Source: Gigaspora rosea (Eukaryota > Glomeromycota > Glomeromycetes > Diversisporales > Gigasporaceae). Taken from it: DNA of 64,000 bases. Positions 5,801 to 64,000 of the stretch are shown piece after piece; the first letter of the stretch is position 1; every line of letters starts with the position of its first letter. Where the stretch lies: contig QKWP01000008.1 in the NCBI GenBank assembly GCA_003550325.1, forward strand, positions 623,376 to 687,375. The letters are read 5' to 3'. The notes beneath the pieces were generated by a model that worked only from the letters and a program-made list of their open reading frames with translations, had not been told where the DNA came from and did no database searches. A program made the translations under genes and the position numbers.

Positions 5801-6160
5801 GCATATAATAAATTTTATATTTAATTTTAAACATAAAAATTGTTTTTATTATATAGTTATATACAATATAAATTACTATTACTATTGTTTATAACTTATT
5901 AATATTATGAGTATTGCTAACTTGCCCCTGTAATGTAACCACCTATAATTTACCAATCAGATCACAGAATCTTGTATAACAAAAAAAAAATTTAAGAAAA
6001 TTTAGAAAAAAATCAAAAAATTATCAATATCGCAAAATTTTATTACAAGAACTAGCTTTGGGCTATTAAATAAAAGCTTTTGGCATCTAATTTTGTATAT
6101 AAATAATCAATCCATCCTCTACCTTAATATACTATTACAGTACCAGAAGCCTTCTTTAAT
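5801..6160. other. AT-rich stretch before the retroelement
   Basis: No gene seen. Poly-A-rich with no recognisable RNA. The boundary with the retroelement end is uncertain. Confidence 0.4.
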
Positions 6161-6743
6161 TCCAATAGAGTAACAATCACACGGCTCTTGAGATCCCTTA
6201 CTTTGGGCGTGAAACGGTGTGCAAGAGGGAAGTATAGCTTCTTTATGTCTGTAAGAAACTACACACTTCTCTAAGGCAGTTCGGTATAAAACAACAAGAG
6301 ATAATAAACAGTTTATTAATTTAACAAGAGGGCTATTCCAAGGTGTCTGTTCCTTAGAAATCCCAAGAGTTTATTTAATAAATATAGAGGAGGGTAATTA
6401 ATATAAAGGTAAAGATAAAATACAATGTCTGGATCTGTCTAAAACCAAGGAAAATGAGATGGGTTTATATATCTATTGAGCTAAGCGTCGCTAAGCGTTG
6501 TTAAGCATCGCTAAGCGTCATTAAGCGTCGCTAAGCATCATTAAGCGTCACTAAGCGTCGTTAAGCATCACTAAGTGTCGTTAAGCATCACTAAGCGTCG
6601 TTAAGCGTCGCTAAGCCTCATTGAGTGTCATTGCACATCAATTTCGCATATCACTATTACTAAATACAGTTATTACAAAATTTCCTTATTAAGTTCTAAT
6701 TTTCTAACTAATTTCTACCAAAATTAAAACCTATTCTATAACA
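6160..6743 (-). repeat. LTR-like end of the retroelement with polypurine tract beside it
   Basis: On the minus strand a purine-rich run (reverse complement of ctctcccctttaag, 6748-6760) precedes TGTTATAG, a plausible LTR start at 6743. The outer limit near 6160 is a guess. The LTR contains the 10-bp tandem array at 6479-6640. Confidence 0.5.
6479..6640. repeat. 10-bp tandem array (TAAGCGTCGC-like)
   Basis: About 16 imperfect copies of ctaagcgtcg, ttaagcatca and close variants follow head to tail. The GC content is clearly above the surroundings. The array sits within the LTR-like sequence, where it may act as a regulatory minisatellite; that role is inference. Confidence 0.85.
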
Positions 6744-6871
6744 TTTCTCTCCCCTTTAAGAATGAACTCCGTGAGTTCTAATTTGGGGAAGGACTTGAGA
6801 AAGTTTGGCATAGTTAACCTTGTAATCATTGTATAAGTAATATAGGTTGTTCGAGAGATATTTTCTAAAGG

Positions 6872-7850
6872 TCAATTAGAGAAAAGCAATTTCATCCATA
6901 TGGCACACTTCCATGTGTCTCGGGCTCTTCTTTCTCCTTGAGTCTTTTCAATTATAGATTGAATATCCTCATGAGCATTAGGGTACTTGTCTATAAGGTT
7001 ACCAAGATAATAATAAGCTTCAAGCAGTTTATTTTGGTCTTGCCTGTTTCGAGTTCGAGTTTTAATTTGTTTGAGAATTTTCTGCAACTTCTCTTGATAC
7101 GTTATTCCAGTATATGGAGGGGTAGAGGTCTGAGTTAGAGGTCCACAAGGTTGGATAATATCTTGTATAATCTTGGTTAACTTTTCAGGTAATGGGGCAG
7201 GAGTAACTTCTTCTTGATTAGTAATTGGAACTGTTAATGTTTCTTCTTGTATGTCTTCTAATTCTAAGTTTTGGTTTATTTCGTCTGTGTCATTTACTTC
7301 TGGTAAATTAATTTCTAATTGTTCTGTGTCTTCTAAAGTGTTCAGAAAATTATTTGAGTCTGGCTCAAGAAAATAAGTAATTACATTAGTAAGGTCGATA
7401 GTCTGAGAGGTATCATTATTGTCACATAATCATACACATTGTGATGTAATCCACAGTGCATAATTTTGGGCGACATTATCTTGTTCCATGTCTGAAAAAG
7501 GTATTGGAGGGCTAACAAGGTTTGAGGTTGCAGTGTAGGGGTAGTCATTTTTGGGAAAATTCTTAAAGAGGTAGTTGTATAAATACATTCTGAGGTTTTA
7601 CGAATTAAATTGTGTGTTTCATTCCCTTGTAGATCAAATTTCTTCTAGAAATTTCCAAGAGAATCAATAACAGTGGCTCATGATACTTAGCAAGGCGATC
7701 ACTATTATAGTGCTTTTGTAAAATTTTTTCTTTTGTTGTCCGTAATTTATAAGCACTATTGTCTAATTTCTCATGGATAAGGAAAGGTCCAAATCTTTTG
7801 TCTTCAAATTTTGCTGAGCGAGAGGCTTCTAGTTCCTTTCTTTGTATCAC
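6872..7850 (-). mobile_element. Retroelement: C-terminal integrase module and tail (fossil part)
   Basis: At 7605-7850 the minus strand encodes a GPF/Y-type module (FGPFLIHEKL followed by SAYKL), the usual C-terminal part of Ty3/gypsy integrases. Beyond it, 6872-7600 is low-complexity acidic and Q/N-rich coding-like sequence with a basic helical stretch; I assign no function to that tail. Confidence 0.65.
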
Positions 7851-7879
7851 ACTTTATCACCAATTTCAAATGTCTCTGT

Positions 7880-9016
7880 TCAAATATTGGCATCAAAACG
7901 GACTTTTTGTTTCTGCTGTGATCGTTCAGTATTCTGTCTGGCCTGAGTCTGATAATTGGGTAATTTCTCTATTAAATCATAAGCACGTTGGAGGATACTT
8001 CCTTGTAAGTCTATTTCATTGTCAATTTCTATAGGCTCTACTAGGAAAAGTGCTTCGATTGGTAAGGTAGCATATCTCCTATATATAAGTTGAAAGGGGG
8101 TATATCCTGTGGTAGCATGTCTTTTTGTTCTATATGCTAAGAGAACAGCAGGTATATACAAATTCCAATCATCATCTCCTTTCACTCTTGCAAGTGATTC
8201 ACACAATGTTTTATTAAATCTTTCTACCATACCATTTGTCTGAGGGTGGTAAGGAGAAGAGAATTTATGCTTAATAAGAAATTTCTCACAGAGAATTCTA
8301 ATTGTTTCACTAATAAAATTGCGACCTTGGTCTGATAAGATAATTTTTGGAGTTCCATATCTACAGATTATCTCTTCAAAGATAAACTGAGCGAGTGTAC
8401 TAGTACTAGCATCTGAAACAGCACAAGCTTCTGGCCATCGTGTTAGGTATTCGGTAGCAACAATAATATATCAATTGTTTTGCTTGGTTATAGGCAAAGG
8501 GCCTACAAGGTCAATTCCAACACGTTCGAAAGCTTTTCCAATTTGTATAGAGTGTAGAGGTTCTTTTCTATGACCTTTTTGTCTTCTTTGGCATTCTTCA
8601 CAAGTCTTCACATATTCTTGTATATCTCGATATATCTAATCCCAATAATAGCAGTCGGATATTTTATAATACATAGCGTCAGTTCCCAAATGTCCAGCAG
8701 TGGGGTGTTTATGCATCATATATAATACTGGTTCAACTTCTGTCCTTTTTATAACTCTAAGGGGTCTGTCTGGGTTTCTTTTATTCTTCTTATAGAGAAA
8801 GTGATATCTAATTTCAAAATATTTAGCCTGGGTCATCAGTCGTTTCTGTTCTTGGTCAGTAAGTCCATCTGGGAATTGGTCTGTGTCCAAATAGTGATAG
8901 AGGTTATAATATTGGTCAAGATTCGTGAGATTTAGTAGGTATAATTGTCTGAGTTGGTAACCGTGAGAGGGCATCAACATTTGAGTGAATTCGGCCTGGT
9001 TTATGAATAATTCCAA
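7880..9016 (-). mobile_element. Retroelement: integrase region (fossil part)
   Basis: The upstream part carries the zinc-binding N-terminal pattern (HKHPTAGHLG). The downstream part holds the end of the core domain (MVERFNKTL, then LLAYRTKRHATTGYTPF), both hallmarks of Ty3/gypsy integrase. The region directly follows the RNase H region in transcription order. It is a broken fossil, part of the element at 6160-13450. Confidence 0.85.
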
Positions 9017-9209
9017 AATTGTATGGTTGGAGCTTCAAAATCCATCTTCCAATTCTTCCTTTGGGTTCAGCAGTACGTAACCATTTAAATGCTGAGTAGT
9101 CTGTAACTAAGATGAATTTTGTAGTGCCTAAATATTTATAAAAATGTTCTATGTTCCATACAACTGCAGCACATTCAAGTTTAGTTGCTGCATAATTTAT
9201 TTCTTCTTT

Positions 9210-10349
9210 TCACAAACTTTTACTAGCATAGGCAATAGGGTGCTCTTTCCCATATCTATCTAGTTGGCTTAATGTGGCTCCAAAGCTATTGTAAGAAGCA
9301 TCAGTAGCAAGAATAAATGTACCTTTAAAGTTGGGGTAGACTAATATAGGGGCAGTAATGAGTCTAGATTTTAATTCTTCAAAAGCTTTTTGTTGTTTGT
9401 CTTGCCAGTGATAGGGTTCATCTTTTTGCAGAAGAAAATTCAAAGGGCGAGCAATTGATGAAAAATTTTGAATAAATTGGCGATAGTATCCTGCAAGTCC
9501 AAGAAAAGATCGAAGAGCTGTGAGGTTTTTAGAAGGTTGAATCCATTGGACAGCTTCTACTTTTTGAGGGTCAGGGGCGATACCCTTAGCAGAGATTAGG
9601 TGTCCAAGGAAAGGTAGTTGGTACATCCAAAAGGTACACTTTTCTATATTGAGTCTGAGTCCTGCTTGTTTAATTCTATTGAATACTCTTTTTAAATGGG
9701 TTAAATGTCCATCAAATGTTTTAGAATAAACAATTGTATCATCTAAGTATACAACTACAAATTTCCATGCAATTCCTTTATATATACGATCTATTAGCCT
9801 TTGGAAGGTTGCAGGAGCATTGCAAAGACCAAAAGGCATTATATTAAATTCATAAATTCCGTATCGTGTAGTAAAAGCAGTTTTCTTTTTGTCACGGGGG
9901 TCCATAGCAACTTGCCAATATCCACTAGCAAGATCGAGAGTAGAGAACCAAGAGCATCCTGTAAGAGCATTAAGCATTTCATCAATGCGAGGTAGAGGGT
10001 AAGCATCCTTTTTAGTGACGGCATTTACTTTTCTGTAGTTTACACAGAATTGTAATTTGCAATTTTTCTTTCGTACTAGAACAACAGGTGAGGTCCATAG
10101 GCTATCAGAAGGTTGAATAAGCTTGTGTTCTAACATTCTTTGTATTTTTTCTTGTATAAATTCTTGTTCATTTGGAGGTACAGAATAAGGGCGAGAATGA
10201 ATGGGGTGTATATCCTCAGTATAGATCCGGTGAGTAACCAAATTGGTTCGTCCTAGCTCAGTTATATCATTTGCAAAGAGGTCTGCAAACTCTTCCAATA
10301 ATTTTCGGAAAGCTAGGCCTTGTTCTTTATTAATTTTTTTCATGTTCAA
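9210..10349 (-). mobile_element. Retroelement: reverse transcriptase and start of RNase H (fossil part)
   Basis: About 380 residues read on the minus strand contain the canonical RT blocks: LDLASGYWQV, MPFGLCNAPATFQ and the catalytic YLDD box, followed by FLGHLIS and the LAGYYRQFI connection. The RNase H start is marked by ILATDASYNSFGA. These motifs are Ty3/gypsy. This is the best preserved part of the element. Confidence 0.95.
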
Positions 10350-10429
10350 GAGTAATTATATTTACAGGTCTAGGTATAAGGGTCTGGTCTGGGTCGACAG
10401 GTAGTTTATGATCCTGCCTAGGATTCTCT

Positions 10430-11240
10430 AAAAATTTTGACAGAGTGCATCCAAGGCATTTGCCCGTTGGTGAGCATTTTGGGATTCTTCTTGGAAAAAG
10501 CATAGTAAAACAGCATTGGTAGTTTTCAAGGTTTTAATTTTTGCTTGTAATTGTTTTATCAATTGGTCTTGTTGTTTTACTTGTTGTTGAAGATGATAAA
10601 GCTGTGAATCATCACCTATTTCCTTAATAGTTTCTTCAGTAGGTGGAGAATAAATTTCTGGGTCTGAAAGTTTTCAATCATCGCAATATCCTTGATTTGC
10701 ATTCAATTCCTCTTGGTGTTTAACATGCAAACATTCCTGGCAGAGGTCAACAGGAACTGTAAAGTTTCTTCTAAGTACAGCGAGGGCATATTTCTGGTCA
10801 TAGTCTGGGTGGCTAGTGTCGAAAGATTCATCTAAAATTGCTTGTAGAGGGTCAATATCATTTTCTGATAATAAGTCTGATTCAGCTTGCAATATAAGTT
10901 GCATTTTCTTATAGCTCCAAGGTTGAGTTATGTGATCAGAGGTTAAAGGTTCTAAGGCCTGGACGATAGTCTGGTCATTTTCATCCAAGAGAATCTTTGC
11001 AAGTCGGTAAATTCTGGTCTGGTTCATTTTATATTGGTGTCCTGCATTCTTTGTTGATTCAGTATATCGTTTAATTCTGGTCCAGAGGTTATAATTAGGG
11101 TTATATTGAACATCTTGGCTAGCTTTGTATGTGTAGAGGTGTTCCAATTCACAAAACCATAATTCTTCCCGAAGACTGTCAATTGACACATTCTAGTCCT
11201 TGTATCTGCTTTATTACATACTTTGCAATTAACAAGCATC
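10430..11240 (-). mobile_element. Retroelement: long linker between protease and RT (fossil part)
   Basis: A predicted acidic, helical region with scattered cysteine pairs (CKVCNK near its start, CQECLHVKH near its end) separates the knuckle region from RT. I do not recognise a family. It makes this element's pol longer than a minimal Ty3/gypsy pol. Confidence 0.5.
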
Positions 11241-11439
11241 CCACGTCCTTCACCCTGGGTGAAGAAATGGATACTTCTAGGGTTTTCTCAGTCTAGAGCA
11301 TACGAGTTTCTTTTTAAGAAGTCTAAGGGCTTCAGGTCTGTTAGGAACTCTACATTGACAACAATGGTGGGTATGGCGGGTGCTATGGTTAGGTAGACGA
11401 TTACTATCAACTTGATCAAGAGTACATCCACACTAATAA

Positions 11440-12234
11440 ACCAAATTTTGTCTTTTCCAAGTGGCAAGAGGACAATAAGCTTCAATATGTCCTAATGTAC
11501 TGCATCCTTTGCAGACATTATTGGGGCAGTCCCTGTATAGATGTTGGAGTCATGGCAAGTAGGGCAGGAGGTACGTCTTGGGGCTTGTTTGGGGCATTTA
11601 ATAGCATATGGCCAAATTCCTGGCATCGATTACATTGGTTGGTAGGACAATTGGCAAAGAGGTGGTCAGGAGAACCACAATTCCCACAAACATGCTGTTT
11701 AGGAGCTTTTCTGCTTTTACGGCGAGAATGATACGTGGTCCATTCATTTTCTTTTGGTGAGAGAGATTGGTCTGAGTCTTCTCGATCAAAAGTATAGGCT
11801 TCTCTGGGGTACAAGTATTCTGGTTCATAAAGGTCTAATTCATCTGGCACGGTAACAGTAGGTTGACTGGGTAGAGGTTTGTTACTTTCATAAGTAGTAG
11901 GGATAGTATGTTTCTTGTTTCCCCATTTAAAGGTATAACAGCCATTTTTCCAATTATAGTTTGCTTCAACCTTTTGGTTCCAGTCATTGCCTAAGAGAAG
12001 AGAGTAAGAAGGAGTGTCTACTACTTCTACAGCAAGAGGGAAGGTAATATGATCAATTTTGACTGGTAGGTCTTTTATAATTCCTAAAGGTCGAGTGGAG
12101 GTTCCAACTGCAGGGACAATAAGGCTATTAGAGACCTTTTCAATAGTCAATCCAAGTTCCTTAACTGCCTTGTGAGCAATCATGCTAATTGAAGCACTAC
12201 TATCAATAATAGCTTGATAGGGTTTATTCTGCAA
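11440..12234 (-). mobile_element. Retroelement: aspartic protease followed by two zinc knuckles (fossil part)
   Basis: The first about 115 residues resemble a retropepsin: active-site region IIDSSAS, hydrophobic LIVPAVG, and the C-terminal LLLGNDW. After an acidic linker come CX2CX4HX4C knuckles CGNCGSPDHLFANC (near 11670) and, towards 11465, CKGCSTLGHIEAYC. Knuckles downstream of the protease are unusual, since they normally end gag. Confidence 0.7.
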
Positions 12235-12247
12235 AGAGACATTACAT

Positions 12248-13276
12248 TTAACAGGTGTAGATATGCAGGGGTTTGAACAAGATTAGCATTTTTGGCTTCT
12301 TCATAAAGGTGAGTAGCCAAGGCACCTCGGATAGATGGATTATTGAGTAGTGTTTTCCACTTGCTAGCAGTAAGAGAGGGTGTCTGAGTCTGATTTTGTA
12401 TAAGATAATTAACACTTCGATGATAAGGAGAAGGAGACTGATTAGAGGAGTTTTGGTAAGAGCAATAGTTATCATCATTTCGACTTCTGTAATTATTATC
12501 CCTAGATTGGCTTCTAGGTCGAGAATTATTGCGACTGCGAGAACGGTCTCTGTTATTGGAATATCGGTCAGAAGAGCGACTATTTCGGTCCCTATTTTGG
12601 TTGTTATTCCTGTTCCAGTTATTGTTATTATTATGATTACGACGAGAATTGGATCCTTGTCGTTGGTCGTGTTTTCTACTATTACAATCACGAATAAAAT
12701 GTCCAGTGCATCCACAATAATAACAGATAGGAGGCTCTTTTATTCGAGGGTTTGAGCACGGTTGTCAGCATAATTTACAGAAGAGGTAGGTGTGGTCTGT
12801 GTCTGGGCTAAGTTAATACTAAGCTTGGCAATTTGGTCCGTAAGTTGTTGAATAACTTGGTCAGTATTGGTAGTAGGATTAGTTATTAGTTTTCCAGTTT
12901 CCCAGCAGAGAGCTACTTCGATAGCATTGTCCAAGGTATTAGGTATAGCAGCTTGAACATTAACTGCATACTCAGGATGTAAGCCTTGAATAAAAAGTTG
13001 TTTAACAAAATCAGCTGGAAAAACCTCAGTCGGGTCCACTTTCTTTTGTAAAGTACGAAATCGGTTGACATATCCATCCACAGTCTCTGTGGGTCCTTGC
13101 TTAATATCAAAAAGCTGTTTTTGCCAAAGAGCCTTTTGCTTAGTAGTATAGAAACGTGCCTTAAAAAGATGCTGAAAACTTCGGTTCTGGGCACCATCAT
13201 CATTGAAAGCATTGGGTACTGGGTTTAAAGCAGTGTACCAGTCCAGAGCAACTCCTTTAAGATACACAGGGGCCAA
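12248..13276 (-). mobile_element. Retroelement: gag-like region with zinc knuckle (fossil part)
   Basis: At 12740-13276 the minus strand encodes a retrotransposon gag core (ALDWYTAL, then FKARFYTT, QLFDIKQGPTETVDGYVNRF and KQLFIQGLHP). Near 12700 lies a CCHC knuckle (CYYCGCTGHFIRDC), followed by an R/N-rich stretch to about 12400. The antisense frame with many I and V residues over 12396-12755 is a shadow. Confidence 0.85.
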
Positions 13277-13450
13277 CTGGAGTTTTCTCTCAGCACTCCA
13301 TCAATTAGCAGTAGCAGCTCTCCTAAATTTCTTTAGCCAGTCAGCAGGGTATTGGGTTCCGTCACCATAAAAATCTGCAACAGTTATAAGAGTTTTCTCA
13401 GAGCCTTGTCCAAGAGCAGTAGCAAGATATGGCAGAGATTATTTTAAAGG

Positions 13451-20181: not shown

Positions 20182-21399
20182 CAGTCAACCCTCCCTAAAT
20201 GCAAGTCGTCGGGACAGGCTCTGAGGCGTGCATTTAGGGAGGGTTGCAATTAGAGAGTAGCCAATCATATTGAATCTCTATGTAAAATCACGTGACCATT
20301 GTAACCAATAATACTGTATTGTATAATTTTATTGCATAAAATAAAGTTTTTTCGCTACACTAACGCTACTGTATTACAAAAATTTTTTTTAATTTAGTCA
20401 TATATAAATAATATATAAGTCCTTTGCTTTGCTCCGGACAAACCTAATTTATAAAACCTTAAAATTTTTTAAGACAAAACTAATTTAGGCGCCTTACTTA
20501 AAGATATTACAACGTTCTACAAAAAGATAAGTAAAGGCATTACGTTGATTTATTTAAAGTTTTAGAGATTTTACTAACGCCTTTTCTCCAATATCAGGTT
20601 CGAAATTATAAAAAAAACAAATCCTCCAAGATTTAAAAATACAAGCACAATGTTATATTACGTACATAAATACATATGTATATAAAGGTATAGTATGTGT
20701 ATATTTTCGGGCTAATTGTACCGGTATCAGATGATTAAAACGATTACCCCATAAGAAAATTGGACCAGATCACTACGGGTTGGCATCAGATAAGTACGGG
20801 TCTTCGTAGCATGGTTCAAGATCCGGATTTGTACGGGTATAGCTAGTGATGTGCCGTGTATAGTACAGTATGCAAAAAATTTTTAGAATATTCTAGAACA
20901 AAATATAAAACTATTAATAACTTAAATTTTCCCTTATGAAACCGCCGTTTATTTTCTAAGCAAAATTATTCCTTGCAAAATTTTGTATATAGATAGTTTA
21001 TATATTATATGCGTACTATACATATTTCACATACTATATATACTATATGCACTGTACAACTATACGTACTGTACATACTGTACGTATTGTACGCTAAAAA
21101 AATTCAGACAACATATAAATAGCACATTACTAGGTATGGCCCGAATTGGTACATAGTGATCGGGAACGTATATAGTGATCGAATGTTATAAAGAATATCA
21201 AATTTTGATTGGTTGTTTTATGACTGTGATCACGTGGTTGCATTTATGGGGGAGTCTATATGCACGGGCCAAGAGAATAGCATGCAATTGCAGAATAAAG
21301 AACGTGCACTTAGCTATAAGGCCCTTCATGGGGCCAGACAATTGCCATGTATTTAAGGGGGGTTGCATTTAGGGGGTTGCACTTAGAGAGGGTTGACTG
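20182..21399. mobile_element. TA-flanked TIR element, 1.2 kb, inserted in the kinase C-lobe region
   Basis: Ends cagtcaaccctccctaaatg and (reverse complement of right end) cagtcaaccctctctaagtg form a TIR of about 23 bp. TA lies on both sides (20180-20181 and 21400-21401). Subterminal GC-richer words such as gcatttagggagggttgca and gtatttaaggggggttgca repeat the TIR motif internally. No transposase frame is visible, so it is non-autonomous. It sits right after the last kinase codons of 18425-20170, so its insertion plausibly truncated that gene. Confidence 0.8.
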
Positions 21400-28139: not shown

Positions 28140-28819
28140 GCAAATCTTACGTTTTTGATACTCCTGCACTTACTTTTTTGATACCCCCAAAATTATGCTT
28201 ACTTTTTTGATGCAGATCTGCATATATACACGTGACTTGTGTTACACAAAGGCCAAGTTCATTGTTTTGCAAAAATAATTTTTGGTTACACACTGCTAAT
28301 GTCGTGTAACGTTACACAAGTCTAATTTTGCCCGGCATTAAGCTTAATGCTAGTGGGCACTAGCATGATAATGTCCCCGACGGGGTTAGACATAATTCCA
28401 GCCCACCCTAACCCTAAATCTAGGAACCCTAAAAACTAATTGTTCGAAGCAACATCCAATCACAGTACATATACTAGATGCATATGTCGTGTAACAGTAT
28501 ATGTACTGTGATTGGATGTTGCTTTGAACAATTAGTTTTTAGGGTTCCTAGATTTAGGGTTAGGGTGGGCCGGAATTATGTCTAACCCCGCCGGGGCATT
28601 ATCATGATAGTGCCCACCAGCATTAAGCTTAATGCCGGGCAAAATTAAACTTGTGTAATGTTACACGACATTAGTGGCGTGTAACCAAAAATTATTTTTG
28701 CAAAAACAATGTACTAGGTCTTTGTGTAACACAAGTCACGTGTATATATGCAGATCTGCATCAAAAAAGTAAGCGTAATTTTGGGTTATATACAGGAGTA
28801 TCAAAAACATAAGATTTGC
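28140..28819. mobile_element. MULE-like foldback element, 680 bp, with 9-bp target duplication
   Basis: Two arms of about 325 bp are inverted copies around a short centre near 28470-28500. The ends are gcaaatcttac and (right, reverse complement) gcaaatcttatg. The 9-bp word gcattagcg flanks both sides exactly (28131-28139 and 28820-28828). Long TIRs with a 9-bp duplication are typical of Mutator-like elements. The arms carry telomere-like ccctaaccctaaa, gatgcagatctgcat and aagcttaatgc palindromes. No coding capacity. Confidence 0.88.
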
Positions 28820-37789: not shown

Positions 37790-38556
37790 TTGCGGTTTGC
37801 AAACCTATGTGAAATTTGCTATCAAAAAAAAAAAAAAAAAACGATGATTTCTGATTCTGATTTTCGATTTCTTTACCATTTTTTTAGATCTTTAAATTAC
37901 ATATTCATCATTTTGTAATAATTTGACTGAACATTTTTATAGAAATGCTGTAGATTCATTATTTTGTAACATAACTTTTGTAAGAATATTATTTGCACAT
38001 TCATCATTTTACAAAGAATTTGAGTAATGATTCTTTTTTAGGCCGATAAAATTTACTATGCATGAGTAAGTCTATATATAAATATTAGTGCACCATCAGA
38101 TGTAATGTTAAAGAGNTTGCACATTCATCATTTTACAAAGAATTTGAGTAATGATTCTTTTTTAGGCCGATAAAATTTACTATGCATGAGTGAAAAGAAA
38201 TTTAAGAGTTGTACCAAATTCAATCTTATAAGAATTATTACATGATTCTAGCAAATTAATTTGTTTATTACCATGGAATTTCAATAAGTTTTAGATTTTA
38301 AAGTTGCACAAAAAAGATATTTTGTGCATCCAAAACATGTTCTGAGATATAATTTTTGATCATTAGAAAAGGTTTGTTTTTTTTTTTAAAAAAAAAATTT
38401 GTATACTATATAAATATATATAGATACGTAAGTCTATATATAAATATTAGTGCACCATCAGATGTAATGTTAAAGAGAATCGGAAATCAGAAATCAGAAT
38501 CATTGATTTCTTTTTTTTTTTGATCAGCAAATTTCATATATTTTTACAAACTGCAA
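37790..38556. mobile_element. TA-flanked TIR element inserted in flank copy D
   Basis: TIRs ttgcggtttgcaaacctatg and (right, reverse complement) ttgcagtttgtaaaaatata, both continuing into tgaaatttgct. Flanked by TA (37788-37789 and 38557-38558). The sister flanks read straight through the site (aatttaatgattat at 33113 and 59098), giving an empty site. Contains the N at 38116 and exact duplicated blocks that may be an assembly artefact, so the true length is probably shorter. No coding capacity. Confidence 0.8.
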
Positions 38557-39854: not shown

Positions 39855-42800
39855 AATACATCACACATAATATTAGAGAGATTTAAATATTGCAAATTTG
39901 AATTCATGAACACCTCCGATATTTCTCGTGTGTTGATTGGACTTGAATTGTACATGCAATCCGGGTGTTTTTGCGTAATTATAGGTAATTCACTGATTAT
40001 TTTATCGGCTTCTGAAAATTGCTTCTTAATTTCATTTTCATCCGAATTTTCCAAGCTTTTATTCCATTCATCAAGTTCACTTAAAATATCTATAACAATG
40101 GGTCTCTTTTTTGATCATGATTCATGCATTGCATTGCTAATTCGATATAACATTTGGGAGTTCCAGGTGCGAATTCTGGATGCAATCCATTACATATATC
40201 TAATGCAAGGCTACAGTCAAATGAACGACCGTCAAAAGGCCTTTGTCCATTTGATATTTCAGTCATGATGATTCCAAATGAGTAAATATCTGCAGCCTGT
40301 GTGGGCTCCTTACGTAATAAAACTTCTGGAGCAATGTATGGTAAGACACCAACGAGCCCATTATTTTCTGTAGATGGTGAAAGTCCTAAATCTGCAATAT
40401 ATGCGTTATCTATGTCATCTTGCAAAATGTTGCCGCTATGTAAATCTCGGTGAATGTATCCTTGAGAATGGATTGCTTTAAGATCGGAGGTTATGCAGTG
40501 TAACAACTTTAACTTTTTTCCCAGTCCATTTGTGATACATCGCGAAGATTTTTACTCAATGATGTCTTCCTGGCATATTCTAAAATAAGTATATAATTTC
40601 CATTTTTATCCTTAGAAATTCCAAAACATTTTAAAAAGGATGGATCCACATCACCAATTTCACAATATATCCTTAAATCTTTAATAAGTTCCTTATGATT
40701 ATTTGAATCGAGTTTTTTGAGCGCGACAGTTGTGTTTAAATTTCGACTTTTATCATACCAACGCGCACGGTATACCGTTGCGAATCCGCCTTTACCTATT
40801 TCATAAATATTTTCAAATTCTCTATAAGGAACTATTGGCGTTTGATAATTATTTTTAATAATCATTTTTTTCAAATCATCATCAAGACAAGAATTTTCAA
40901 AACAAAATCTATATTGAACTAAAAGAAAATAGATAATATTAAGAAAATATTCAAACACTAACAATTAACAACATAAATTACCTGTTAAATATGAATCATT
41001 GTTTATTATAGCTTTTTTTATACTAACAATTTGAATTATTTATTAAAATCAATATATCTATTAAATATATAAATACAAAACATCCCATATTTTTACCTTT
41101 GATACCAATGATTCGATTTTGTTAAATCTCTCTTCACTCCGATTCCATTACGATAGCAATGAGCAACAGGCGATATTCCACCAATATGACCCAGATTACA
41201 GGATTTTTGATAATATTCAAATGCTTTTTTTTCGTCCTTTGGAACACCAATTCCATAATGATAGCAAAAACCAATATTAAATATTCCATTAACATGACCC
41301 AGGCTGGAAGATATATAATAATATTCAAAGGCTTTTTTTGCATCATCTTTGACACCGATACCATATTCATAACAGATACCAACACTCTGTATTCCTTCAA
41401 CAATGCCCATTACAGCAGATTTCTGATAGTATTCAAAAGCTTTATACTCGTTTTTCTCGGCTCCAATACCTTTTTCATAACAATAACCAACATTAAATAC
41501 TCCTTGAGCAACATCCAAGTCGGCTGATTTTTTATAAAATTCAAAGGCTCTATGTTGATTTTTCTCGACTCCAAATCCTTTTTCATAGCAATAACCAACA
41601 TTAAATGCACCTTGTGCACTGTCCAGGTCAGCGGATTTTTTATAAAATTCGAAAGCTTTATACTCGTTTTTTTTACTCCAATTCCTTTTTCATAACAATA
41701 ACCAACATTAAATACTCCTTGAGCAACTCCAAGTCGGCTAATTTTTTATAAAACTTAAAGGTTTTATGTTCATTTTTCTTGACTCCAATTCCTTTTTCAT
41801 AGCAATAACCAACATTAAATGCTCCTTGTGCAATGTCCAGGACGGCAGATTTTTTATAAAATTCGAAGGCTTTATACTCGTTTTTTTCGACTCCAATTCC
41901 TTTTTCATAGAAATAACCAAGATTAAATGCTCCTTGTGCAGCACCCAGGTCGGCAGATTTTTTATAATGCTCAAAGGCTTTATACTCGTTTTTTCCGACT
42001 CCAATTCCTTCTTCATAGTAATAACCAACAATAAATGCTCCTTGAACAACATCTAAATCTGCTGATTTTTTATAAAATTCAAAGGCTTTATATTCATTTT
42101 TCTCGACTCCAATTCCTTTGTCATAACAATAACCAACTTTAAATGCTCCTTGAACAGCACCCAGGTCGACTGATTTTTTATAATATTCAAAGGCTTTATG
42201 TTCATTTTTCTCTACTCCAATTCCTTTTTCATAATAATAACCAACATTAAATGCTCCTTGAGCAAAATCCAAGTAAGCCGATTTTTTATAAAATTCGAAG
42301 GCTTTATGCTCGTTTTTCTCAACTCCAATTCCTTTTTCATAAGAATAACCGACATTAAATGCTCCTTTTGCAGCACCTAGGTCGGCCGATTTTTTATAAA
42401 ATTCGAAGGCTTTATATTCGTTTTTCTCGACTCCAATTCCTTTTTCATAGCAATAAGCAACATTAAATGCTCCTTGAGCAACGTCCATGTCGGCTGATAT
42501 TTTATAAAATTCAAAGGCTTTATATTCATTTATCTCGATCCCAATTCCCATTTCATAACAATAACCAACATTAAATGATCCTTGAGCAACATCGAACTCA
42601 ACTGATTTTTTATAAAATTCAAAGGCTTTATGTTCATTTTTCTCGATTCCAATTCCTTTTTCGTAGCAATAACCAACATTAAATGCAGCTTGTGCAATAT
42701 CCAAGTCGGCTGATTTTTTATAAAATTCGAAGGCTTTATACTCGTTTTTCTCGATTCCAATTCCATTTTCATAGCAATAACCAACATTAAATGCTCCTTG

Positions 42801-43184
42801 TGCAGCACCAAGGTAAGCTGATCTTATATAATAATCAAAGGCTTTATACTCGTTTTTTTCGATTCCAATTCCTTTTTCATAATAATAACCAACATTAAAT
42901 GTTCCTTGAGCAAAATCCAAGTAAGCTGATTTTTTATAAAATTCAAAGGCTTTATATTCATTTTTTTCGACTCCAATTCCTTTTTCATAGCAATAACCAA
43001 CATTAAATGCTCCTTGTGCAATATCTAGGTCAGCAGATTTTTTATAAAATTTGAAGGCTTTATACTCGTTTTTCTCAACTCCAATTCCATTTTCATGGCA
43101 ATAACCAACAATAAATGCTTCTTGTGCAGCACCCAGGTCAGCTAATTTTTTATAATATTCAAAGGCTTTATATAAAAAGCTCAT
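39844..43184 (-). CDS. Sel1-repeat protein fused to a TKL-type kinase domain
   Basis: Best gene of the window. Exon 1 (43184-41097) encodes 19 Sel1 repeats of 36 residues, typical unit VGYCYEKGIGVEKNEYKAF. A GT-AG intron (41096-41023), a 41-bp micro-exon (41022-40982) and a 63-bp intron (40981-40919) lead into the kinase exon from 40918. The joins keep one open frame (WYQSIKKAIINN...VQYRFCFEN). Kinase features: GKGGFATVY, TVALKKL, HRDLHSGN, ADLGLS (DLG for DFG), APEVLL, DIYSFGIIM, so catalytic residues are present. Then ILSELDEWNKSL and a short tail. Breaks: single-base losses near 41728 and at the T run 41667-41674, one at the T run 40514-40519, and an extra GA near 40110. Sel1 repeats are protein-binding solenoids, so a cytosolic scaffold kinase is likely. 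The N-terminal leader seen in the 18425 paralogue is absent; ATG 43184 is the first in-frame start. Confidence 0.85.
41093..43184 (-). repeat. 108-bp tandem array coding Sel1 repeats
   Basis: About 19 head-to-tail units of 108 bp. The first 13-15 are highly alike, the last three or four (towards the kinase) are clearly diverged. Such homogeneity points to recent unequal exchange or gene conversion within the array. Confidence 0.9.
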
Positions 43185-43189
43185 CGAGA

Positions 43190-43980
43190 TATGTAGTATA
43201 AAACTCGGTTATAACTAGTTAATTAAAATGCCAGGAATGAGAATGTAGTCATGTTAGCATAACGGGAATTAATTTACAGAGTTAAACAAAATCACATACT
43301 CGATAGAATAGTAATTGTGAACGCACTGTATGAAATTTAGAAATTACAGGTTATGACGTACGTACGTGCGTACATATTCAGTGTTTTCTATGGTATTTTT
43401 GGTATCACGTGGTACTTTTCTTTACCATTAAGAGCTTCTGTGAAACATTCTGATTATGATTTGTTAACTTTTTTAGGAGCATCGCACATAAGTTGTTTTT
43501 AGTGTAGTAACTAGCGATGTACATGTGGCGGGCAACTTCGTCGCCCGCTTGCAATTTTTAAATGGCACTTGACTTAATATGTGACACATTTACAAAATTC
43601 TATTAGTACTATACTGTGATGATTTGTAGGCCAGCAAGAAGGAACTTATAAGCGTATAAATACTATTTAAAAGGAAATAATTTTACCTTTTGTAACTTTG
43701 TTTATATTAATCTGCTCTTATTGCTCAAAATGAGAGTAACGCTTGATTTTTAATAATATGCTAAAAAGAAATGTAAAAATAATTGAATTATTTTTATTTA
43801 TGTTTTTGAATGATCAATTGTAAATGTGGTTGATGGGTACAGGTTTAATAAAATTTGTGGTTTGTTTATTGTTTTTAAAACGGATAATAATAATAGATTA
43901 TAATGCTAATGATAAAATTAATTGAAAAAAGGGATAAGATAAACAAAGAATAAGTAAGGTGAAGAATTCAAATATTACTT
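43190..43980. other. Intergenic upstream of the Sel1-kinase gene
   Basis: No gene. A palindromic acgtacgtacgtgcgtac tract occurs near 43355-43375; similar cgtacgtacg words precede the plus-strand paralogue at 18312-18362. Whether this is a promoter motif is unknown. Confidence 0.4.
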
Positions 43981-49309: not shown

Positions 49310-50570
49310 ATTTTTAGTAAGTTTTTTTTTTAAAAAATTTTTACTATAAAAAAAAAAAGCCGTGCGGCTGTGTCACTGATCACCATCTCATGTTATGAAA
49401 ACCAAGTCTATAATTTTGTGCGGCCTTATATATAATGTGTTATAAAATTTTGCAAACATTTGGAAATATCACATAAATATTAGCTTGTTATATATATTAT
49501 ATATAGCTGTAAGAAACTAATCAATATGAGCCAAGCCGATAGGCTGCAGATACACACTAAATATTGGCTAACTATCATATCCACATATCAAAAAGTTTCT
49601 GTAACATGTCTGTTCAATTTATGTGACCTATCTATCATCTTACCAATAGGGCACAAAAATATTATTGTTGAATCTGTAAATATTGTAGTTGTAGTATAAA
49701 TTGAAAATAGTTAAAAAGAATAGCTAAATTAAATAGATTGTAACTTGAAAATAAATTAGTTCTAAGTTTACTAAATAATGTTCAAGTTTGTATTTGAATT
49801 TATAATATATAATAAATTATATAAATTATATTGCAATTTTATAAAAAAAGAGTTTATTCTCAAAAAAAAACTGGATAGATAAAGTAAAAGCCTACAAAAC
49901 TCTTATTTATTTTATAAAAAAATCAAGTTTATCTAATTTTTAAATGATAAATTTTTAATTTAAATCTAATTTTTGATGTTTATTTATATTTTTATAAATC
50001 ATATTAATAATTATAATTGAGTCTTTTAAAAAAAGTTTTTTAAATTTAAAAAAATCAAATTTTATATGCCCTATTTATATTCTTATAAATTATATTAATA
50101 ATTATAATTGAAATCTATAAAAAGAGTTTTTAAAATAAAATTATATTTTGAGTAATAATATACAAAGTTGTTATTTTGTAATTCTACTTGTTTAAAAATT
50201 GCATATTTGACTCAAATTATACCCATATAGTCTTACAAAAATATATTCTATATATAACTTACAAGTGCTAAAAATTATGTATAAATTGTGTTTTATTATA
50301 AATAATTACAAACTCAAAAAGAAATTTTTGTTTAAAAATATTAGATTAATATATAAACTAGAATCATAGTTATTTAAAATACTTTGTTAGTAGAACTCTA
50401 AACAATCTATATGAGGTTATATTTGAAAATTGCTAATATAGGCCTTTTTTAAAAAAGGTTACATTTGAAAAGTAGGTATGATATTGGGTAAAAAGTCTAT
50501 TTGAAAACAGCTAATCACTAAATAGATATATTTGAAATTTTACTAATAAAATATCAATTCTTATAAAATG
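49310..50570. other. AT-rich stretch without gene
   Basis: Nothing recognised except homopolymer runs. Confidence 0.5.
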
Positions 50571-50575
50571 CACTT

Positions 50576-50930
50576 ATGGTGTTTTACCACCACCATAGGT
50601 AAATTAGATCTGCAAATCTGTGTAACAAAACAAATAAATAAATTTTTACAAACCAAAAAATAAATTTTAATTACTTTAGGGTTAGGGTAAGGCCTGGGAT
50701 TTTATTGGTGCTTTAGTATATACAAAATTTAGCAATGAATTTTTGTTATTAGAGCCCCAAAGGTGGTTTCATAAGCAAAATTTTGAGATATGAATGTTTT
50801 TTTAAAAAAATAAACAAAAAAATGAAATTTTTTGTTACACCTGATCTTAAATTTTGATTGACTATTCTAATAGTTTTGTGTAACATGGTGCAAAACACCA
50901 TAGGTGCGTTTTAGTAAACTCTAAATAATT
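50576..50930. mobile_element. TIR element with GCACTTATGGTGTTTT ends, about 350 bp
   Basis: Left aaaatgcacttatggtgttt and right (reverse complement) aaaacgcacctatggtgttt are inverted over about 20 bp. It contains the gttacacctgatc module (50834-50846) and agggttagggt. No coding capacity; exact ends and duplication uncertain. Confidence 0.6.
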
Positions 50931-51875
50931 ATTATAAATCTTATATTTGAAATATGCTAATAATAAATATAAAATAAGTTTTAATTAGCAATCTCATAAG
51001 AATGTTAGTATTATTTTATAGTTATTATAGCACAAATTACTATGTATTTTATATAGTTATGAAATCTTTTTTTACTCTAAACATATAAAAATTTTATATA
51101 GCTACAAATGTTAAAATTAAATATCTTATAATCCACCAGATTAATTTTAATAATTTTATTATATTATATGTAAAAAATCTTCATTTAAAAAGTCAAAATA
51201 TGTTAGCATAATAAAAAAAAATTTAGTTATGAAGGAAAAGAAGATTTCATAATATATATAGATTAAATAGTAATTTGCACAGATATAATTCTATCAGTAT
51301 CCTATCCTTCTTAGACAATGGTTTTTTTTTTAGAGAATGTTTTGAAGTATATTTTTTTTTAATAAACATATTATATTCCAAAAAAAGATACAGAAGACTA
51401 AATTCTTATATAATATTTGAAATATAGATTATATATACCAATATAAAAGTGTTAACAAAAAAATTTACTATAATGCCCAAATATAAGCTCATATGAGATC
51501 CTATATATAGGTACTATAATTGAGTATTTTTATTTTTCTATACAACTTTTTAATTTGATTAATATTAAGGTAAGTAACCTTAAATAGTATTTTCTTAGGT
51601 ATTTATTGGCTAAGATTATTGGATTAAATATATTTCTATATCAACCAACTCAGATAAAACTAAAAATTTTGGGGTAATTAAAGTGAATGTTCAAGAAAGA
51701 TTACTATTTGATAATAATTTTTTTGATTTTGTATTTCAATGGCTTTGATTACTAGATATAACTAGGCTAATGCGTAGCATTGTAGGGCCGGAGCCAAAAT
51801 ATTTAAAATTTTAAATACTATATAGTACTGCATAGTATTTATATAATTTTATTTAAAAAATTTATTTTTAAAAAA
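50931..51875. other. AT-rich stretch without gene
   Basis: Nothing recognised. Confidence 0.5.
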
Positions 51876-51879
51876 AGTT

Positions 51880-53290
51880 GCATTGCGCGACTAGTTTACG
51901 TACTTTTATATTATTTGCTTCAAGATTTTCTTTCGGTCCAACACCAGAAAGCATTAATATCTTTAAAAAGTAAATACAAATAAAAAAAAATGCTTACAGC
52001 TTTTTCAGAGTTGAAATCAAGTTCACCATCAAGTGTGAGATTGTAAATCTAAGGATTGAATTTAATTTAATTAATTGTTGTAGTTATTGTAGTTATTGTA
52101 ATAATCCAGAAATTATACAAAAAATAACAGTTTAATAGCATACAAAAACTATCATAACGATTTCAGTATCGACTACAGTACCGTGCTTACAATTCTTGCC
52201 ATTAAGTAGTTTAAATCTAAGTAGAAAAAAAAGTCAAAGGTGTCATTATAAAAAAAGGAAGCCTTGAATGACAATTTCACAAAAAGTAATTTACCTGGCA
52301 TGATGTCGTTTTTGTATAATCATAAATGTTAACTTTGGTAGCGGCAATTTTTCAGATTTGTAATACTTTTCAAGAGCTACAAGTAAGGGTTCCAATTCAT
52401 CTGTTTTAACAGTTTCAAACTGGGTTTCTCCAATGCCATCCCAATAGAAAATAATTTCTGGAAGTAGTCTTCCCTTAACTTTACATTGTTCAAATAATTC
52501 CAAAACCATTTCATTAAGATTCTCTATAATATCAACGTCATGCCTTAACTTTTCATTCATCCAATAGCGACAAGAATATTCTGTTAGGTTGTCATTCATC
52601 AAACCACACAACTGCAGAAACACTAGGTCGTCCTTTTTCTTATCTTCTTTGCTTGGATGATAAACATCAGCGCGAATACCATATGCTAATATAATATAGA
52701 GATAAATTTAATATTTAGTTTAAATAAATTTTGAATAAATAAATTTAAATACAAGTGTATTATTATTATTATTATTATTAAATTCTCTTGTTCTTACCTG
52801 AGGGCTATTAATAGCAAAATTGGCTTCTACTTTATCTTTATAACGAGTGGAGAGTTTTTTTTGCTTGAAGTTGAAAAAGGCAAAGTAAGTACATTTTTGG
52901 GCATCTTTGAGGCAGTCGTCCGGTAGCACCACTACAAATAATGACTTCACCTTTTGGAGTAATAAAGGCCTCACGCACAGTACCATTACAAAAATATCTT
53001 ACACCAATTGCAATATTTTCTTTTTTATTCTCCTCATCCCAAATAATTTCTAATACATGAGCATATGATCTAATATCTACGGCAACAACTTTTCTGAAAC
53101 CATTTGGTTCTGAACCTGGACGGAATTCAACTTTTTTTTAACGCATCTCTTAGATAGCAATCAGCCAAAGTTGCATTGAAGTTCCAGTTAAAGATGGCAT
53201 TCGTGGTTGAGCTAATTTAATAAAGGCTATACTAATTTAGCTTGTAATTAATCGTCGTTTTAAAACACCTGCAATGTCTTATGGCAAGGC
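51880..53290 (-). pseudogene. GMC-type oxidoreductase fragment
   Basis: On the minus strand 53170-52925 encodes LADCYLRDALKK, then VVAVDIRSYAHVLEIIWDEE, AIGVRYFCNGTVREAF and GEVIICSGA. This matches the central part of GMC oxidoreductases (usual form: GVEY...EVILSAGA). After about 100 bp that does not fit, NFAINSPQ ends at a CAG|GTAAGA donor (52798). An AAAG acceptor at 51961 leads to ILMLSGVGPKENLEANNIK, the next GMC motif (SPQ-LLMLSGIGP); the join is in frame. The family is FAD-dependent alcohol or sugar oxidases. The FAD-binding N-terminus and catalytic His region are not in the window's readable frames. 53170-53290 is decayed, with stops and a frame break at an A run. The 837-bp intron contains Argonaute-like sequence. 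Confidence 0.75.
52150..52685 (-). pseudogene. Argonaute PIWI-domain fragment (two exons)
   Basis: Minus-strand exon 52685-52295 follows a TTAG acceptor. It reads GIRADVYHPSK (the first catalytic Asp region, GADVTHP in the family), a helical stretch, PEIIFYWDGIGETQF (family RDGVSEGQF, second Asp), and LTFMIIQKRHHAR (family ITFIVVQKRHHTR). A GT donor at 52294 and an AG acceptor at 52217 join it in frame to FKLLNGKNCKHGTVVDTEI (family PGTVVD). The PIWI end with the last catalytic His is not found, nor are PAZ, MID or N domains. Argonautes bind small RNAs in silencing; this piece alone would not. It lies wholly inside the intron of the GMC fragment, on the same strand. Confidence 0.85.
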
Positions 53291-53299
53291 CAAACGAGC

Positions 53300-54890
53300 C
53301 TAAAATAGGAATTTAGAACGAAAAGAATTAGTATTTTTTTTTTAAATAATAAAGAATTGGGATTAGAGCGTAGTGTGAGATCCAAGTTTGGATCTTTTTA
53401 AAGTAGTTTGTTACGAGAGATCATTGCATTACGTACCGGGACACAAGCAAAAAACTCAATCTGTACCCGGAGATAGTATTTGAGAGTTAAATCTAAAGGA
53501 AGTACGAAACGAAGTTTAATGGTCAATGTAGTGCACAAACGTAATTAATAATAAAACAGGTTTTTAATAACAAACAGGGTTTTATCGTTCTACTACTTTA
53601 GAGGGTAAAACTACGATACGATAGGTTTATTTTTTTTTTTGCCTTTTTTTTTGACATTTTGATTACGCGACACGCGTGAGGACAGACAAAAAATATCAAA
53701 GTTGCACTTTTGATAAAATTTCTATAAGATGTACAAAGATGCATCAGAAAAGATACGTTTTTTGGGCAAAAAGCATCAAAAACGTAACTTTTGTATCACT
53801 TGCATAGACACTAACTGACCGTCGCTACGCTCCGGCCAATAATAAAATGTGGTCAGATGTAATAAACGAATATGTTAGAGTTTTAAAGCCAGCCAGCTTT
53901 TTAGAAGTATGCTTATTTGAAAAATAATATCACTTTAGTTTATCATTTAAATAAGCATTTTTATAATAATTTGTTTTCTAAAAAAGTTATATTAAATTTC
54001 TATGCCATTTGATGAAGGGCCGTCAACTCAATATACATATAAAATAATGTTAATGTGTATCTTAATGTTATCTAATAGCTTCATACTTTATTTACATAAT
54101 ATCTATTCAACATTATGTTATTTAATAGTTTTATTCTTTTATTTATATAATGTATATTTCAACTATTATGAAAAAAATGAAATATTAACAAAGCAATGCA
54201 GTGATACGGTTGTATATCATAAAATAGAGCAATGTTTACAAAATCATGGTTTTTGACACTTTGCCTAGTTTTATACAGTATTATAATTTATAAATGATTT
54301 TATAGATAAAAATATTTTAATACTTGACGCGGATCATAATGAAACCAGATTAAAATGAACTGTGGAATTCTATTTAACTCTCTAAAACCCACTTATACTT
54401 GTTTAACATAAGCTTTACTCTAAACTAACCTCTAGTTTTAACCTTAATCTTAAAAAAATGCACCAAAAAAAAAAAAATGGTTGTCAATTATTTTATATTG
54501 TACATATTTCATTTTAATCCGTCACAATACTTATGCATTATTTAAATTAGGCCAACTAGAAATATTAAAAAACGAGAAAAAAGTCTGCTATGGTATAAAG
54601 CACACCCATATTGAACTTATTAAAGCAGTATGTATCGCACAAATTAAATTATTTTTAAAAAATTAGTATTTTAAAGCTTTTAATCTTGCATAAAATTACA
54701 GATTTTGAATAATACAGTCAATGCAACAAATTCTCTTAAACCTATTCTAACAAAAATTTTGAAATTTCAGATAAAAAATTTGATGAGTTGGTTAAAACAA
54801 TAGAAAAAGAACTATTTGAGGGTGATGGTTATCATTTTTTGCATTCGTGCTTATGAAAAAATGGTAATGATAATTAATCACAATTCAAAG
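53300..54890. other. Intergenic, no gene recognised
   Basis: Open frames at 54002-54256 and 54481-54666 (plus) lack any recognisable motif. The segment 53340-53830 is GC-richer in places (gattacgcgacacgcgtgagg) without a clear identity. Confidence 0.4.
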
Positions 54891-55343: not shown

Positions 55344-57080
55344 TTAATTTCCCATCAGAATTTTCACTGCTTGTAAAAGACTACCTAGATGAATTGTAAC
55401 TAAATATATTAAGTTTTCTGGCGAGATTTTCATTTTCATTAAACTAAAATACAACTCGTATTCTTTTATTTTCATCTTTAGAGGTTCCCATGCCATTATA
55501 ATGAATATCAAATAATTATCTGATCTATCATTTTCAACAGACTTCATATACCATTCAAATGCTTTCTTTTCAATTTTAGAGACCCATATGAAATCTAAAA
55601 TAATTTCCAATATAAAGCTGTGCAAGAATCTTTATTTTAAGCGAATTTCAAATGCCATTCAAATACTACCTATCTTTTAACTTCTAGCAATGCTAAAACC
55701 ACTTTGTAGAAGAATCCAACATTTATTGCCTTTGAGATTTCTACCTTCAGCAGATTTTTTGAACATTCAAATGACTTCTTTTCGTCTTTAAATTCCTATA
55801 TCAATTCTAAGCAATCTCCAACATATGTCAGTCCATTGGAATTTCCGTTTTCAGCTGATTTCAAATACAATTCAATTGTTTTCTTTTCATCTTTAGAGAT
55901 GGTTAACCCATTTTTGTAACAAACTCCGACAATAAACTGCCCAATATTATTTCCATTTTCAGCTGATTTCAGACTACTCATATGCCTTTTTTTGTTCTTA
56001 GAAGTGCCTAAGCCAAATCGGTAAAATCCAAAAATTGAATCCGAACAGATTTTAAATACCATTCAAATGCTTTCTTTAATCTTTGGATATTCCTATTCCG
56101 AATTCAAAACACTTTCTAATATTGTATTGTTCGCGGTAATTTCCTTATACAAATCAATTTCCAACATTTAGTTGTCCCTCAGAATTTCCATATACAACTG
56201 ACTTCAAATACCATTTTCTCATCTTTAAAAATACCAAATACAGATGCAAAACAATCTCAAACAATTAGTTGTTAGCTGACTTAAGATATCATACGAACGA
56301 ATTTTTTTCATCTTTAGCAATTTCTATACCATATTAATAACAAAATTCGACACATGTTTGTTAGTTTTACATTTTTTGCAGGTTTAGAAGACCATTTGAA
56401 TGGTTTTTTTTCATTTTTAATCTTATACCATTTTCATAACAAATTCCAATTTTACTTGTCCATTAAAATCTTTATTTTCATCCGATTTAAAATGCCATTC
56501 AAATGCTTTTTTTTTTGATTCATAGAAATGCCTTTACCACCCTAGTAACAGGCTTCAACCATTAGCTGTCCACCAGAATTTTCATTTTCAACGGATTTCA
56601 AGTACTTCCAAATTCGTTTCTCATCGTTACAAATGCACTTTTCAAAGTGAAAAAACTTTCCCAACATTTAATTTCCAATCAGAACTTCCATTTCAGCTGA
56701 CTTCAAATATCACTCAAATGCTCTCTTTCCATCTTTAGCAATTTCTATACCATATCTGTAACCACATCCAACAATAGTTGTTCATTAGTTTCAGCACAGT
56801 TTAAATTCCACTCAAATACTTTTTCTTCATCTTTAGGAATACCTATTCCAGATGTAAAGTACATTCCAACACTTAGTCATCCATCAGAATTTGCATTTTA
56901 AGATGATTTTAATACCATTAAGATACTTATTCTCATCATTAAGAATACTATTCCAGATGCAAAACAATTCCCAACGCTTAATTATCCATTAAATTTTTAT
57001 TTTCAGATGCCTTCAATACCACTCAAATGCAATTTTTTCATTTTAGTAGCTCTTACATTATATTCATAATAAGATCCAAT
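55344..57080 (-). pseudogene. Decayed Sel1-repeat array
   Basis: Many short minus-strand pieces match the Sel1 consensus, for example FIVGVCYKNGL...SKDEKKTIELYLKSAENGN (55840-55960) and KKAFEWYMKSVEND (about 55530-55570). Units recur every 108-120 bp out to about 57060, so ten or more repeats once existed. Frames change from unit to unit and stops are common. The unit differs from the 41093-43184 array (KSAENGN type instead of KKSADL), so it is a separate, older family member. No kinase part is seen next to it. Confidence 0.8.
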
Positions 57081-63704: not shown

Positions 63705-64000
63705 GTAATATTGGCCAATCGAATTTCAGGATCAGGTGTAACGTAAAATTCGAAACGAAACAAAAAAACAAAAATAGCTTTAAATTTTAATTAGGAAACC
63801 ACCTTCTGCGGCCTAATTAAAAGTGTTCCTTGTGAAATTTTACTGATAGAGCATTCTAACCCTGCGTTATACTCACCCTAACCCCAAATATAACGCGTTT
63901 TTTAGGTTTATACGCAACTTTTTACTTAGAAAATAAAAAACGTTTGTTTTGACTATCACGTTACACCTGATCTTAAATTTGATTGGCTGGGTGAACAATT
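63705..64000. mobile_element. TIR element, cut by the window end
   Basis: Left ggccaatcgaatttcaggat continues into caggtgtaacgt. The right side (reverse complement) is cagccaatcaaatttaagat and also continues into caggtgtaacgt: TIRs of about 33 bp, 63712-63743 and 63959-63991. The interior contains ctaaccctgcgttatac and ccctaacccc. No frame. The right boundary lies near or beyond 64000. Confidence 0.65.

Follow-up and report, generated by a model that had tools for sequence, protein, structure and literature searches.

A probable non-coding mosaic of GMC oxidoreductase and Argonaute gene fragments in Gigaspora rosea

We analysed a stretch of 64,000 nucleotides of Gigaspora rosea DNA, called the window below. 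On balance, we read one locus within it as a non-coding mosaic of duplicated GMC oxidoreductase and Argonaute gene fragments, copied at the DNA level and joined in transposon-rich fungal DNA. Pieces of both gene families, each present as an internal fragment only, lie inside 2 kb together with stretches that have no assignment (Table 1). Their introns are retained with good borders, and their reading frames are broken and incompatible. Because the introns were kept, the copying would have proceeded through DNA and not through mRNA; we infer that the product has no function. An initial annotation had described a PIWI fragment inside the intron of a continuous GMC gene on the same strand. The parts and the intron that it named are real, and the continuity is wrong.

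Table 1. Positions of the pieces of the mosaic and of its possible termini within the window
Feature	Position	Strand	Basis
Left terminus GGCCGGAGC of possible TIR element	51786..51794	+	sequence, simulation
GMC exon ILMLSGVGPKENLEANNIK, followed by GTACGT donor	51904..51960	-	sequence, Pfam, PDB match
GMC intron, 837 nt, GTAAGA...AAAG, phase 0	51961..52797	-	predicted from sequence; frame restored
Exon-like stretch IYNLTLDGELDFNSEKA, 51 bp, AG/GTAAGC borders, phase 0-0	51998..52048	-	sequence
PIWI exon 2 (FKLLNGKNCKHGTVVDTEI), end point approximate	52157..52216	-	Pfam, translation
Intron between PIWI exons, 78 nt, GTAAAT...TTAG	52217..52294	-	restores HHA-R-FKLL
PIWI exon 1 (ADVYHP...YWDGIGETQF...QKRHHAR), phase-1 start	52295..52685	-	Pfam, AGO2
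GMC motif INSPQ, exon end	52798..52812	-	sequence, Pfam, PDB match
Frame-shifting insert in GMC exon, 112 bp, TGCT-edged	52813..52924	-	sequence, translations
GMC oxidoreductase fragment, IRSYAHVLEIIWDEEN...GEVIICSGA	52925..53074	-	Pfam GMC_oxred_N once joined to INSPQ and ILML
Stretch of ~60 bp KKVEFRPGSEPNGFRKVVAVD, in frame with next GMC piece, not GMC-alignable	53077..53137	-	
Right terminus GGCCGGAGC, inverted, of possible TIR element	53829..53837	-	sequence, simulation

The GMC piece at 53074-52925 reads IRSYAHVLEIIWDEENKKENIAIGVRYFCNGTVREAFITPKGEVIICSGA on the minus strand; 112 foreign bases come next, then INSPQ, the intron and ILMLSGVGPKENLEANNIK. When the peptide was assembled without the 112-bp insert and without the 837-nt intron, it matched Pfam GMC_oxred_N (PF00732) significantly (E 5.9e-11, profile 156-209 of 218). 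The same joined peptide matched hydroxynitrile lyases in the PDB (E 5e-11), and both matches bear out a family call first made from motifs. The alignment begins only past the ~60-bp KKVEFRPGSEPNGFRKVVAVD stretch, for which a Pfam search gave no match. Further upstream, a tentative GMC stretch, ADCYLRDALKK (53216-53130), lies in a separate frame again and is split at a run of eight A; homology searches gave it no GMC support. A motif scan of the locus found neither of the N-terminal motifs, GGG[ST]AG or NLxDH, and a six-frame motif scan of the 64-kb window found no further GMC or AGO motif. A functional GMC enzyme would need an open frame, an FAD-binding N-terminus and a C-terminal domain. Here the frame is already broken at 52924-52813.

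How does that break arise? GEVIICSGA sits in a minus-strand ORF, 53137-52841, closed by a stop at 52840-52838 that is in the GMC frame. The frame of INSPQ is a different one, that of the minus-strand ORF 52998-52723. The initial annotation had taken GEVIICSGA...INSPQ for one GMC reading frame, a claim refuted by the 112 bp, the frame shift and the stop that intervene. Since 112 is not a multiple of 3, the GMC frame shifts, and because the two halves lie in different frames, any GMC transcript from here would be broken. The insert carries a duplicated TGCT at its edges (52928-52925 and 52816-52813), and a Pfam search with it gave no match. We also considered whether it might be an intron. This was ruled out by reading the sequence, where no GT-AG boundary restores SGA-INSPQ. 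The 112 bp resemble either filler left behind by repair or a small insertion.

Every motif named in the initial annotation was found on the minus strand where it had been placed, and the 837-nt intron that it proposed proved well formed: CAG ends at 52798 with GTAAGA next, AAAG ends at 51961, and the intron therefore runs from 52797 to 51961. INSPQ and ILMLSGVGPKENL are both in phase 0 and join in frame. As INSPQ and ILMLSG follow one another directly in the GMC profile and in relatives of solved structure, and flank the PIWI part with matching phases, the simplest reading is that the PIWI part was inserted relative to the GMC gene model, as had been proposed. The description of PIWI sequence within a GMC intron thus holds for the intron and fails for its host, a GMC fragment already broken. 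Within the same intron, the 51-bp IYNLTLDGELDFNSEKA stretch (52048-51998) would link in frame with INSPQ and ILML. This IYNL exon had no match in a Pfam search, and upstream of INSPQ the GMC frame is broken regardless of whether this stretch is joined.

The PIWI piece matched the Pfam Piwi profile with E 1.7e-15, over positions 105-221 of 302 or ~40% of the domain, and human AGO2 with E 9.5e-12, so that this family call too was upheld. That it contains two spliceable exons was likewise correct: removing the 78-nt intron at 52294-52217 exactly restores HHA-R-FKLL, and the exons are free of stops over ~150 codons. Past exon 2 the PIWI similarity fades, and the frame meets a stop at 52134-52132. 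What matches is the middle of the domain; the C-terminal part, and with it the final portion of the catalytic site, is missing. A functional Argonaute would have N, PAZ and MID domains besides a complete PIWI domain, and only part of the last is present here. Neither the GMC nor the PIWI match is due to chance. Searches of viral contigs found no relatives of the GMC piece, and searches of prokaryote and viral contigs found none of the PIWI piece.

Could the two pieces be read together? The GMC donor is in phase 0, and PIWI exon 1 requires a phase-1 donor. Splicing the donor at 52798 to the acceptor at 52685 reads INSPQ-HMVFALMFIIQAKKIRKRTT-stop, that is, a stop after 20 codons; the same donor joined to PIWI exon 2 gives INSPQ-I-stop. 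Both joins stop early, and at the level of protein this refutes the suggestion of a spliced-in PIWI part. We conclude from these translations that a GMC-PIWI fusion protein cannot be read from the locus. RNA from here, if it is transcribed, would have no usable frame and could at best feed small-RNA production.

All of the gene pieces are bracketed by a GC-rich 9-mer, GGCCGGAGC, of which the 64 kb hold exactly two copies, inverted and facing inward. This pair is new in the present analysis. It was spotted by eye before testing, so the figures that follow are post hoc. Among 3000 first-order Markov simulations of the two 1-kb flanks, not one produced an inverted pair of 9-mers containing eight or more G/C. 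When the same geometry was slid along the real window, 2 of the 243 positions had such a pair, and both fall on this locus. The terminal repeats do not extend past 9 bp: the local alignment of the arms scored 22, where shuffled sequence averaged 21. The flanks, GCATTGTAG and AATAATAAA, show no target-site duplication; one may have decayed. A search of viral and prokaryote contigs with the 21-mer adjoining the right terminus found nothing. Beside that terminus, at 53640-53837, we observed the repeated motifs ACGTTTTTGATGC and ACGTATCTTTTCTGATGC and a CpG content unusual for the window.

The window is AT-rich and holds Sel1-repeat genes, protein kinases, LRR arrays and a gypsy retrotransposon, contents in keeping with Glomeromycotina. 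The last is a Ty3/gypsy-type element at 6122-13300 (minus strand) with zinc knuckle, reverse transcriptase, RNase H and integrase, its frames broken. A MITE-like element of ~350 bp with inverted ends (TAAAAYGCACYTATGGTGTTTT...) lies at 50561-50917, and its internal ~85 bp recur at 20907-20991 and 63762-63841. The gypsy element and this repeat make up the transposon-rich setting that favours a mosaic. Several other features of the window were recorded. At 28328-28642 a short inverted pair (TTGCCCGGCA / ATGCCGGGCAA), ~300 bp apart, is possibly another small TIR element. A kinase gene adjoins a long Sel1-repeat array at 40093-43208 (minus strand), and a further Sel1 array, around 55347-57000, is more degenerate.

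From these features we infer a copying mechanism and a candidate transposon. Parts of a GMC gene and of an Argonaute gene, each with an intron, would have been copied as DNA, gap-filling repair or template switching being the likeliest way in which the copies were joined. The same joining event may have left the 112-bp filler with the duplicated tetramer at its edges. Two donor genes, filler and a duplicated tetramer would together be a possible product of such repair or switching at a transposon, a process by which plant Pack-MULEs and animal Pack-TIRs have been explained (PMC8277862). The stretch 51786-53837, with its inverted GGCCGGAGC ends, is possibly a non-autonomous Pack-TIR-like element, which would have been moved by a transposase encoded elsewhere. 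If the locus is a mosaic, we give this likeliest vehicle about an even chance. Against a TIR vehicle stand the agreement of the termini over 9 bp only and flanks without a target-site duplication.

Perhaps no mobile carrier was involved? A resident GMC gene may have decayed in place, losing its ends, receiving an Argonaute fragment in an intron and the 112-bp insert in an exon; the inverted 9-mers would then belong to separate repeats. On either side of a phase-0 intron with sound borders, INSPQ and ILML are still in place, as this account predicts, and 51786-53837 has no target-site duplication. However, the window has no other GMC motif, and the two inverted 9-mers enclose every piece. We regard decay in place as unlikely.

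The initial annotation had also proposed a source of small RNAs against host Argonautes. Were the locus retained for its RNA, transcripts of the PIWI piece would pass through RdRP and Dicer to small RNAs acting in trans on host Argonaute genes. The stop-free PIWI exons are compatible with this, as are the expanded AGO and RdRP families of arbuscular mycorrhizal fungi (PMC6399891), and Pack-MULE and Pack-TIR transcripts can yield small RNAs in other organisms (PMC8277862). However, the PIWI part, when checked for an inverted repeat, had none, RNA folding showed no excess (z -0.15), and the piece is sense-oriented relative to the GMC piece. Scans against Rfam and for tRNAs gave no match. With no PIWI inverted repeat and no folding excess, the sequence lends the proposal no support, and retention for RNA is very unlikely. 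The more specific idea, that a TIR transposon of an arbuscular mycorrhizal fungus captured gene fragments including an Argonaute piece and yields small RNAs against the host silencing machinery, is more improbable still.

A small gene might make a piwi-only peptide from both PIWI exons, independently of the GMC piece. The frame is intact and the intron precise, and seven piwi-only AGO-like genes, at least four of them expressed, have been reported in R. irregularis (PMC6399891). Yet the similarity starts and stops within the domain, exon 1 opens at a phase-1 splice acceptor for which no upstream coding exon was found, and the fragment ends before the catalytic site is complete; we think such a gene very unlikely too. 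Nothing in the sequence speaks for a small-RNA role or for a peptide of the piwi-only kind. An assembly artefact joining unrelated reads is likewise very improbable: repeat-rich, AT-rich DNA is hard to assemble, but here the pieces alternate at intervals of tens to hundreds of bases and the intron borders are coherent, a pattern not usual for a misjoin, and the sole N in the window is at 38116.

We compare the locus, read as a mosaic, with known systems. GMC oxidoreductases (PF00732), among whose solved structures plant hydroxynitrile lyases such as 3red come closest, share with it the stretch GEVI..SGA and INSPQILMLSGVGP. In contrast to them, the locus keeps ~75 residues, frameshifted by the 112-bp insert, and lacks both the FAD-binding start and the C-terminal domain. 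Pack-TIR, Pack-MULE and Pack-TYPE elements (plants, PMC8903248; animals, PMC8277862) likewise carry fragments of unrelated genes with introns and have no transposase of their own; their short inverted termini have a possible counterpart in the 9-mer pair. They are alike also in a repeated tetramer at one internal junction. Host gene fragments with introns do lie between the possible termini here; the locus differs from Pack-type elements in having a 9-bp inverted terminus only and no visible target-site duplication, and we do not claim Pack-type membership for 51786-53837. In the open-access literature that we searched, we found no description of Pack-type elements in fungi. Should the bracketed element not be confirmed, what remains is a composite pseudogene of an ordinary kind, in a genome rich in repeats.

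The remaining comparison is with the AGO-like genes of arbuscular mycorrhizal fungi, an expanded family (PMC6399891, PMC7082362). In R. irregularis they number 40, among them the seven piwi-only forms (PMC6399891), and in Gigaspora margarita 11, with piwi-only forms absent (PMC7082362). The locus and this family have an Argonaute-type PIWI domain in common, and piwi-only members occur in the family; the locus, in contrast, has mid-PIWI sequence only, in the intron of another gene's fragment and without a start. In Rhizophagus irregularis, AGO genes have Mutator-like elements as neighbours; it has been proposed that these elements dispersed the genes, and Pack-MULEs were cited as a comparable case (PMC8647823). 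Given the AGO expansion in these fungi and such neighbours, an AGO fragment among transposons is therefore to be expected. Until now, the idea that transposons shuffle AGO sequence has been put forward because Mutator-like elements lie close to AGO genes (PMC8647823). Confirmation of the bracketed element would supply an actual example of such shuffling, in fungi with strangely large AGO families.
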